This document shows positions 3,248 through 47,075 of a stretch of 64,000 bases of DNA, piece by piece (positions within the stretch are counted from its first letter, which is position 1; every line of letters begins with the position of its first letter). The stretch covers positions 186,001 through 250,000 of the forward strand of contig LQXN01000066.1 in NCBI GenBank assembly GCA_001648575.1, read 5' to 3'. This stretch comes from Sutcliffiella horikoshii DSM 8719 (GTDB lineage Bacteria; Bacillota; Bacilli; Bacillales; Bacillaceae_I). The notes beneath the pieces are model-generated. The model was not told the DNA's origin, ran no database searches, and saw nothing but the letters and a program-made list of their open reading frames with translations. The position numbers and the translations under genes were made by a program.

Positions 3248-3253
3248 ACAGAT

Positions 3254-3330
3254 AAGTTATTGGTTGGAACAGTTGATCTACGTTGCAGGAGCTACGCTTT
3301 CCTGCGGGCGGTCCGTAAGCCTCATCAATT
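3254..3330 (-). repeat. structured dispersed repeat, truncated copy A
   Basis: Minus-strand copy of the core of the repeat family found at 44612-44778 and 46834-47043. It shares the blocks GTTGATCTACG, GCAGGAGCTACGC, CCTGCGGGCGGTCCGTAAGCC. The outer arms are eroded. It sits between the MFS gene stop and the transcript's terminator. Confidence 0.7.
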
Positions 3331-14369: not shown

Positions 14370-14494
14370 TGTAGCTTGTAGTGCAAGATGTGAGACTCCG
14401 GCGGGAGGTAGCGGTGGGTTGAGACCCCTGAAGCGTTATGAGGAGGCTCAAGCACCGCCCCGCGGAAAGCGAACATCTGGAACGAAAAGCTACA
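14370..14494 (+). repeat. structured dispersed repeat, copy B (inside ilv-leu operon)
   Basis: A 125-bp element bounded by the inverted ends TGTAGCTT / AAGCTACA. Nested stems: AGATGT (14386-14391) with ACATCT (14473-14478), and GCGGT + TTGAG (14411-14423) with CTCAA + ACCGC (14447-14458). It shares GACTCC-GCGGG, GAGACCCC, GAGGAGGCT and CGGAAAGCGAA blocks with the other copies. Same orientation as the operon, between ilvN and ilvC; no U-tract. Confidence 0.85.
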
Positions 14495-18240: not shown

Positions 18241-18371
18241 TGTAGATTGAAGTGCAAGGTGTTCGACTCCAGCGGGGGAGTAACGGTAGGTTGAGACCCC
18301 GCAACGAAGTGAGGAGGCTCAAGCACCGTCCCGCGGAAAGCGAACACCTGGAACGGAAATCGGAAGGAGTT
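18241..18371 (+). repeat. structured dispersed repeat, copy C (inside ilv-leu operon)
   Basis: Second intra-operon copy, same orientation as copy B. Stems: AGGTGTTC (18257-18264) with GAACACCT (18342-18349), and ACGGT + TTGAG (18283-18295) with CTCAA + ACCGT (18318-18329). Compared with copy B, several paired positions change on both sides, keeping the pairing. Confidence 0.85.
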
Positions 18372-41717: not shown

Positions 41718-41832
41718 CATGTGTAGAAAAAGTTCAATTATAATTAAAATCCTTAGTTGATCGAAGCGCCTGGAACGAAGATCAACAGTTCCAACAGATA
41801 ACTTAACTTAATTTTAGTTTGTCAACAGTCTG
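41718..41832 (+). repeat. dispersed repeat copy D, internally deleted, with flanking duplication
   Basis: Carries both outer arms of the element at 46834-47043 (GTGTAGAAAAAGTTCAA and GATCAACAGTTCCAACAGAT ... CAACAGTCTG) but the ~95-bp core is missing between GTTGATCG and AAGCGCC. It is flanked by a diverged 23-bp direct repeat (41695-41717 and 41833-41856) sharing TGATCAATAG. Confidence 0.8.
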
Positions 41833-41866
41833 ACGCAGTGATCAATAGATTGCTGTGTTTTTTTTA
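41833..41866 (+). terminator. intrinsic terminator after copy D
   Basis: CGCAGTGAT / ATTGCTGTG stem (three G-U pairs) and an eight-T tail. It coincides with the right-hand flanking duplication. Confidence 0.75.
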
Positions 41867-44581: not shown

Positions 44582-44611
44582 AAATGGAAGAGAGTGATTT
44601 CTCTTCCATTT
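44582..44611 (+). terminator. terminator hairpin, left copy of duplication
   Basis: AAATGGAAGAGA / TCTCTTCCATTT perfect 12-bp stem, 6-nt loop. Its U-tract is missing because the repeat begins at 44612. Confidence 0.85.
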
Positions 44612-44778
44612 CAGATTGTTGAACAACTATAAGCTAGTTAGGTTATTGGTTAAAACAGTTGATCTCCGTTGCAGGAGCTACGCTTATCCGAAGTGCTGTC
44701 CGTAAGCCTCCTCGGCTGCGCTCCTTCCACTGCGATCAACTAGGGAATTTCAATATTTTAATCTTGGTCTAAACTCTG
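44612..44778 (-). repeat. structured dispersed repeat, copy E
   Basis: A 167-bp minus-strand copy. Plus-strand ends CAGATTGTTGAAC and GGTCTAAACTCTG are imperfect inverted repeats; core blocks GTTGATCTCCG, GCAGGAGCTACGC, CCGTAAGCCTCCTCGGC match copies A and F. It lies exactly between two copies of the same 30-bp terminator hairpin. Confidence 0.88.
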
Positions 44779-44812
44779 AAATGGAAGAGAGTAATTTCTC
44801 TTCCATTTTTAT
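44779..44812 (+). terminator. terminator hairpin, right copy with U-tract
   Basis: Same 30-bp hairpin as 44582-44611 (one loop base differs), here followed by TTTTT-type tail. The rest of the interval to 45041 is AT-rich and holds the promoter region of the next gene; no clear promoter was chosen. Confidence 0.88.
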
Positions 44813-46351: not shown

Positions 46352-46795
46352 ATGCCGAGAAAAGAAGACAGCCTGAATGAACAATTGATTGACTTATTGC
46401 AAGGTGAAAAAATTGTTTCCCTGATTACCACAGACAAGGATACCAATAAACCAAACTTAAGTATCGTCTCCTGGTTGGTAGCCCTTGATGGGAATACTAT
46501 TAAGTTTGCGTTGGGCCATAAGGCAGAAAGTGCTTTCAATATCGATAAAAATCCCGAACTAATCCTCGGGGTGGTTGGAGCGGGCAGTTGCTATTCCATA
46601 AATGGAAGGGGAACTGTTTCGGACGTGATCGACAAAACAATGAAGTACCGTGTCGTAACGGTTGAAGTGGATTCTGTAGAAGATGTCATATTCTACGGCG
46701 GAAAACTAACGCAAGAGCCTGACTATGTGAAAACATACGATGCAGACCTTGCTAAAAAATTAGATGAAGAAGTTTACACATTATTAAAAGCATAA
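46352..46795 (+). CDS. pyridoxamine 5'-phosphate oxidase-fold FMN protein
   Basis: A 147-residue split-barrel protein: EKIVSLITTDKDTNKPNLSIVSWLVALDGNTIKFALGHKAESAFNI is the FMN-binding half, and VGAGSCYSINGRGTVSDVIDKTMKYRVVTVEV the second strand set. Related to B. subtilis small PNPOx-like proteins; probably a flavin-dependent reductase, substrate unknown. AGGAGGGG precedes ATG. Ends beside a duplicated terminator. Confidence 0.78.
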   Translation: MPRKEDSLNEQLIDLLQGEKIVSLITTDKDTNKPNLSIVSWLVALDGNTIKFALGHKAESAFNIDKNPELILGVVGAGSCYSINGRGTVSDVIDKTMKYRVVTVEVDSVEDVIFYGGKLTQEPDYVKTYDADLAKKLDEEVYTLLKA

Positions 46796-46808
46796 GCTAT
46801 AAATAGTT

Positions 46809-46833
46809 ACTGCACCTGTAAAAAGGGTGCAGT
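46809..46833 (+). terminator. terminator hairpin, left copy of duplication
   Basis: ACTGCACC / GGGTGCAGT stem, 8-nt loop; no U-tract because the repeat starts at 46834. Confidence 0.85.
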
Positions 46834-47043
46834 CAGTGTGTAGACAAAGTTCAAATTTGATAGAAAACCTTAGTTGATCGTAGTGGAAGGCGCGTAGACT
46901 CCCGCGGGAGGAAGGGACATGTAAGACCCCGCAGGCGTAGCCGAGGAGGCTTACGGACCGCCCGCAGGAAAGCGAAGCGCCTGTAACGAAGATCAACTGT
47001 TCTAACAGATAACTTAACTAATTTTTAGTTTCTAAACAGTCTG
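46834..47043 (+). repeat. structured dispersed repeat, copy F (most complete)
   Basis: 210 bp with inverted ends (CAGTGTGTAGACAAAG and CTAAACAGTCTG). Inner stems: TTGATC / GATCAA, AGGCGC (46888-46893) / GCGCCT (46977-46982), CGCGGG-CCCGC, and GTAAG (46921-46925) / CTTAC (46950-46954). No coding capacity. Confidence 0.9.
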
Positions 47044-47075
47044 ACTGCACCTGTAAAAGGGGTGCAGTTTTTTAT
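47044..47075 (+). terminator. terminator hairpin, right copy with U-tract
   Basis: Same 25-bp hairpin as 46809-46833 (one loop/stem-edge base differs), followed by TTTTTT. The 270 bp from here to 47344 are AT-rich with no further feature that I can support. Confidence 0.88.

Follow-up and report, generated by a model that had tools for sequence, protein, structure and literature searches.

A mobile element of Sutcliffiella horikoshii lies between duplicated terminator hairpins and shares its ends and target type with an IS1182-family insertion sequence

Results

The window, i.e., the whole stretch of 64,000 nucleotides of the Sutcliffiella horikoshii DSM 8719 genome assembly (67 contigs) that was analysed here, contains a 210-bp mobile element between two copies of a terminator hairpin, downstream of a gene for a 147-aa protein. 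Two further copies of the element lie elsewhere in the window. The features are as follows.

46352..46795, + strand: gene for a 147-aa protein with a PNPOx_N domain; its stop codon is 13 bases upstream of the left hairpin
46809..46833, + strand: left copy of the terminator hairpin, 25 bp, ACTGCACCTGTAAAAAGGGTGCAGT; separated from its U-tract by the insertion
46834..47043, + strand: mobile element (MITE), 210 bp, non-coding, imperfectly palindromic; DNA fold z = -4.2
46834..46849, + strand: left end of the MITE, CAGTGTGTAGACAAAG; 14 of 16 bases equal the left end of the intact insertion sequence (IS) described below
47028..47043, - strand: right end of the MITE, inverted; family consensus CAGACTGTTGACAAAC, 14 of 16 bases equal the right end of the IS
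47044..47068, + strand: right copy of the terminator hairpin, ACTGCACCTGTAAAAGGGGTGCAGT
47069..47073, + strand: U-tract of the original terminator, TTTTT, now behind the right copy only
44582..44611, + strand: left hairpin of copy E, 30 bp
44612..44778, - strand: copy E, a member of the same element family shortened to 167 bp, in opposite orientation
44779..44808, + strand: right hairpin of copy E; a short T run comes next
41718..41832, + strand: third copy, decayed; its right terminator hairpin is recognisable at 41833-41857, followed by eight T

The element and both hairpins lie exactly where an initial annotation of this DNA had placed them, and the hairpins differ, as it had said, at a single position (24 of 25 bases identical). 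The terminator presumably serves the PNPOx_N gene. Because the element directly abuts the left hairpin, a U-tract follows the right copy only, as likewise annotated, and a terminator scan agrees in that it detected the right hairpin (47043-47069) and missed the left one. MITEs are short, non-coding elements with inverted ends that occur in many copies and are moved by a transposase acting in trans; the element described here is short, non-coding and multicopy and has inverted ends. Its + strand terminates in CTAAACAGTCTG in the window copy. The sole listed open reading frame of at least 60 aa at this position (46784-46996, minus strand, TTG start) exits the element via the left hairpin, and a scan of the window against Rfam at gathering thresholds found no family. 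Copy E of the initial annotation proved equally real, with hairpins unrelated in sequence to those of the 210-bp copy (copy F). Fragments resembling inner parts of the element only were seen at 3250-3323, 14440-14486 and 18294-18355 of the window, and such core-only profile matches occur elsewhere too, so that other repeat families may share the MITE core with different ends.

The initial annotation had proposed, as checks, a survey of element junctions, a comparison of empty sites in sister strains and a test for a helper transposase. A genome search with the window copy gave at least 42 matches (40 of 297 candidates scored). The end motif CAGNSTGTNGACAAA occurs 326 times with at most one mismatch, compared with six occurrences of a reversed control, which suggests about 160 MITE copies in the genome as estimated from the ends; small contigs C1, C2, C6, C7, C9, C10, C11, C13, C15 and C16 had none of the ends. 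On contig C4 (complete) and positions 1-400000 of contig C5, an element profile yielded 69 non-redundant matches, 30 of them full length by our own rule; the count leaves out the remaining 39, which are fragmentary, decayed or similar only in part. Duplicated flanks (local score of at least 24) border 29 of these 30 copies, and mismatched pairs of left and right flanks reach this score in 4 of 870 cases. The exception, C4:70801, adjoins another copy. Of 35 full-length copies in further stretches of the same genome, 34 have duplicated flanks; the remaining one (L030) has, as judged by eye, a differing complete hairpin at either end, which is compatible with recombination between two copies. In total, 63 of the 65 full-length copies in the closely read parts of the genome have a duplicated flank, which is nearly always a hairpin and differs in sequence from site to site. 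Weak cases are L120:2973, where the repeat (score 26) folds into no clear hairpin, and C4:156289, where it is decayed.

The 29 duplications on C4 and the C5 stretch are 18-35 bp long. All fold better than shuffled sequences (z<-2), and the feet of the stem lie at most two bases from the ends of the repeat in 26 of them. Arrays of the type hairpin-element-hairpin-element-hairpin are present at C5:353707-354163 and C5:432978-433432 (L168:3979-4433); in the latter, one hairpin occurs three times with two elements between, the first of which has an IS-type right end.

Sister genomes provide the state of the sites with and without insertion. In sister genome G008 (L171), a single hairpin without an element stands behind the same gene at the window site. 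Sister genome G014 carries there two copies of the same terminator, which enclose an element of opposite orientation. We compared the 19 full-length copies on C4 with a 400-kb stretch of G008, in which both flanks were located for 12 sites, two occupied and ten without an element. Five of the element-free sites (C4:20065, 35682, 51984, 66431 and 80818) clearly have one matching hairpin and a sixth (C4:156289) has a single terminator; of the remaining four, two have a hairpin that matches only in part (44633, 117125), one has a weak hairpin (52304) and one does not permit the comparison (70801). Within a 400-kb portion of G014, six C4 sites were comparable, and an element is present at two of them. 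A set of 50 elements served to compare those at three shared sites. The element that G014 has at the window site resembles two further G014 copies (96-97%) more than the window copy (85%). Likewise, G014 carries at C4:171906 an element with 95.9% and 94.8% similarity to two further copies in that genome, against 83% (127 bases) to its ortholog. For the element of G008 at C4:126936, similarity is 89% to the nearest copies (in G014 and G008) and 85% to the ortholog. Elements that are closer to copies at other sites than to their orthologs argue for repeated independent use of terminators rather than inheritance, strongly at the window site and C4:171906 and more weakly at C4:126936. The terminators of sister genomes were found either single and empty or apparently reoccupied independently.

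The search for a helper transposase led to genome G007 of the same genus, which has an intact IS of 1513 bp with a 445-aa transposase and terminal inverted repeats CAGCTTGTAGACAAAG / CAGACCGTAGACAAAC, inserted in a perfect, letter-identical duplicated hairpin of 30 bp. The transposase scores 477 bits against NF033551 (cut-off 270), which places it in the IS1182 family, carries DDE_Tnp_1_6 and DUF772 domains, and is identical to the protein at the same coordinates of S. horikoshii plasmid NZ_CP082921.1. Residues D147, D274 and E401 are invariant in an alignment of 21 sequences and are, judging from this alignment and the predicted fold, the probable DDE catalytic residues. The fold is predicted as RNase-H-like in a model of moderate quality (mean pLDDT 72.8), with Tn5 transposase as nearest structure (E 1.7e-4, TM 0.36). 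Among 72,556 plasmid records, 1188 encode relatives of the transposase, with an identity below 60% in 1178.

The MITE shares its ends and its type of target with this autonomous IS. The IS and MITE consensus ends agree at 14 of 16 positions left to left and right to right, compared with 12 of 16 crosswise. A truncated IS copy in G009 has the MITE-type sequence CAGACTGTTGACAAA at its end, and MITE copies C5:432978 and C4:51984 have an IS-type end, the latter with a match at 15 of 15 positions. Beyond the ends, comparison of the IS with 51 MITE sequences gave short end matches and pieces at chance level only (best E 0.03, an end match); the MITE is thus not a simple deletion derivative of the IS.

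IS1182-type matches occur in 9 of 16 genomes of the genus. Decayed copies of the IS are present in the window's genome on C4 and C58; the C4 copy, 1.5 kb in length, has ends of this kind, lies in a duplicated hairpin that is partly decayed (by eye) and encodes a decayed transposase, the three pieces of which match IS1182. None of the 13 family matches in the window's own genome is an intact helper, and the only long uninterrupted frame among them (C67:28445) is below the cut-off and lacks these ends. IS1202, which carries an rve-type domain, was considered as a helper for its long repeats and rejected: PF00665 has no match in the window's genome, and the IS found is of the IS1182 type. Pieces of IS1182-type transposases lie at contig ends of G000 (C4:37-267, C31:1-348, C53:40991-41338, C49:6-311, C57:7-141 and C67:22-207); those of C4, C31 and C53 are near-identical, with ends unlike those of the MITE's IS group. 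These pieces probably belong to a multicopy IS that broke the assembly. Of the loci searched for inverted and direct repeats, L129 and the CACTGAAAAA group were informative and the others gave little. At L129, the left end of the IS (1377-1423) can fold, as judged by eye, into a terminator-like hairpin followed by a T run and the right end (2840-2876) into another hairpin. Such end hairpins could shield the transposase gene from read-through at preferred sites.

Relatives that carry a gene lie in duplicated hairpins in other Bacillus-like bacteria as well. A scan of a genome collection with the IS transposase found 455 relatives, of which the best 80 were kept; 69 of these were testable, and 11 were set aside because ends were missing or flanks were short. 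Duplicated hairpins flank 61 of the 69 testable relatives among the best 80 of 455, with 61 different sequences of 19-42 bp, and the two copies are letter-identical in 59 of the 61, compared with 17 hits among 4692 mismatched pairs. Several genomes supply many of these IS copies, so the sites are distinct and the lineages are not independent. The eight failures are L198, L200, L202, L226, L232, L250, L254 and L255. The right copy of L226 is masked by N; for L226 and L232 a first, looser pass found a duplicated hairpin further out. L255 has, by eye, a different hairpin at either end, again compatible with recombination between copies.

The extent of the duplication follows the geometry of the hairpin. 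We searched for the best hairpin, i.e., the best local stem, in a context of ±40 positions without using the borders of the duplication, and this hairpin is centred on the duplication at 28 of 29 MITE sites and all 61 IS sites. Duplication length, which ranges from 18 to 42 bp overall, correlates with hairpin span (Spearman 0.76 for the MITE and 0.61 for the IS). The left edge of the repeat lies 1-3 bases beyond the outermost G:C pair at 18 of 28 MITE and 44 of 61 IS sites, the right edge mirrors it, and A:T pairing extends past the repeat edge at many sites. Tracking of the hairpin span by the duplication, which is not exact to the last possible pair, argues against a fixed stagger.

A second IS1182-type group in the same genus, with ends GAGGCCACTGAAAAA (or two mismatches), behaves differently. 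Among 14 loci examined, all ten copies with recognisable ends (L132, L133, L134, L140, L145, L150, L154, L131, L139 and L141, from G005, G008, G009 and G011) have exact repeats of 6-9 bp, two pairs of copies sharing a repeat. The repeat lies at the loop of the best hairpin in six copies and elsewhere in four. Several copies of this group are located inside GC-rich palindromes like the MITE core, i.e., one mobile element targets another. Two further IS1182-type elements, L138 (554-aa frame) and L130 (545-aa frame), have ends AGAGGCTGGGACA; the former lies between an A run and a T run, the latter before a T run, and both may have replaced a terminator stem, as IS1272 does.

Discussion

We propose, with a probability of roughly 85%, that the MITE is moved in trans by an IS1182-family DDE transposase that joins it at the feet of a hairpin, whereupon repair copies the stem-loop. 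Briefly, the enzyme would join the 3' ends of the element to both arms of a duplex cruciform at their 5' feet, leaving two single-stranded stem-loops whose repair would duplicate the hairpin on both sides. As repair would copy the whole hairpin, the target duplication would equal the hairpin and vary in length with it. The terminator of the gene would survive such an insertion, with the far copy retaining the U-tract and the element joining the tail of the transcript, so that termination may well still work. The findings point to DNA shape, not sequence, as what the transposase recognises.

A different substrate is conceivable for the same target. The hairpin could be recognised in single-stranded DNA, as present on the lagging strand or during transfer, rather than as a cruciform in duplex DNA. 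Hairpins in single strands would show the same feet, and REP-type and IS200/IS605 systems use single-stranded hairpin DNA. However, the partner identified here is a DDE enzyme, and duplication of a whole hairpin would need joining on both strands. We therefore consider a single-stranded target unlikely, if still worth weighing.

The initial annotation had left it between the hairpin and the state of transcription termination to explain the choice of target, and these two are hard to separate as nearly all targets are also terminators. Termination itself, by way of a paused RNA polymerase, an R-loop or the nascent RNA hairpin, could guide the transposase in place of the DNA hairpin. By our own rule, a U-tract is found on at least one side of 86 of 90 targets, compared with 90 of the 136 perfect hairpins that are free in these stretches; yet 72 of the 82 intergenic ones among these free hairpins also have one, so that little enrichment is left outside genes and the targets resemble intergenic hairpins in general. 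Relative to the stronger U-tract, neither the orientation of the MITE (13 of 24 informative copies, with five ties among 29; p=0.84) nor that of the IS (28 versus 15, with 18 ties among 61; p=0.066) is significantly biased. Moreover, 4 of 90 targets have no tract at all, hairpins were hit again after a first insertion had parted the tracts, the 42-bp palindrome duplicated at L248 includes A and T tracts, and the sister IS1182 group makes its repeats at the hairpin loop in 6 of 10 copies. The hairpin part of the annotated alternative thus stands, given that 63 of 65 copies have duplicated flanks of differing sequence, and termination state finds no support as a separate cause. We judge guidance by termination to be quite improbable and the hairpin to be the likelier signal, although transcription may contribute to targeting. 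Terminators would be targeted because they are the hairpins outside genes; no hairpin inside a gene was seen as a target, an absence that selection alone could explain.

Two other explanations concern the repeats rather than their recognition. Palindromes are prone to replication slippage, and slippage or recombination might have duplicated the hairpin after an ordinary insertion; the regularity of the duplication in 63 of 65 MITE copies and 61 of 69 IS copies, letter-identical in 59 of the latter 61, makes this very improbable. That both ends of the element bring a terminator of their own, for which nothing but the constant presence of the repeats speaks, is practically refuted by 61 different hairpins among 61 IS copies and by orthologous empty sites, where a matching hairpin occurs singly.

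In the stretches read, 19 of the 29 occupied MITE targets pass the strict hairpin rule of our census and stand beside 72 free intergenic hairpins with a U-tract, i.e., roughly one in five is occupied. If the mechanism by joining at the hairpin feet is correct, this is the share of strong intergenic terminator hairpins that the MITE has taken by the whole-hairpin pathway, and scattered reports of palindrome-loving insertion sequences turn into a testable rule, namely that the target is a shape and the duplication is that shape. Insertion at the end of a gene, with the terminator rebuilt and the gene unbroken, would amount to a safe-haven strategy that could explain the approximately 160 copies. 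The many sites could serve as natural replicates in examining if cruciforms are extruded from short terminator palindromes in vivo, and a structure-directed transposase could serve to map such DNA structures.

Members of the IS1182 family reportedly target palindromes, as Siguier and co-workers are said to have noted in 2015. They share the family and the kind of target with the elements studied here, a comparison that runs via citing papers; according to Wan 2017, no detailed data were given for these members (PMC5678879). More is described for IS1272 and TnSha1, which belong to the same family and insert, according to the passages on target sites, into hairpins without sequence preference, some of them confirmed terminators (Furi 2016, PMC4923244; Wan 2017, PMC5678879). 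In these passages the stem-loop is deleted wholly or partly and there is no target duplication (PMC5678879; PMC4923244). An IS1182-family transposase and hairpin targets are therefore common to both, but the stem-loop is removed wholly or partly there and duplicated as a whole here, namely at 61 of 69 testable IS loci, which separates our elements from the IS1272 group. The outcome seen here is the one predicted by pathway b of the structure-dependent transposition model, in which the whole stem-loop is duplicated as a result of joining at the 5' feet; it is drawn as a possibility (legend of Fig. 13), and the first part of the Discussion names no element as an example (Wan 2017, PMC5678879).

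The family is not uniform, given that 4-bp target repeats are stated for ISPse1 of Paracoccus (PMC3281130) and ISCaa15 of Amoebophilus (PMC3196728), both IS1182 members, in contrast to the hairpin duplication found here. A large survey lists IS1182, together with nine other families, as over-represented between convergent genes (PMC9208149), which fits the picture. Compared with MITEs in general, the element of S. horikoshii differs in that its target duplication is a complete hairpin of variable length. It is an evenly balanced proposition, given the few sites, that IS1182-type transposases are generally readers of hairpin geometry, each group cutting at its own place, and that all three pathways of Wan 2017 (duplication of the whole hairpin, duplication at its loop and replacement of the stem) coexist in this genus. 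Among titles and abstract openings of the open-licence literature we found neither a terminator-duplicating MITE nor an IS1182 element that duplicates a whole hairpin, which does not prove that none has been described. Hairpin targeting by IS1182 elements was thus published before and duplication of the whole hairpin was proposed as a model; our comparative evidence for this duplication is unusually strong.
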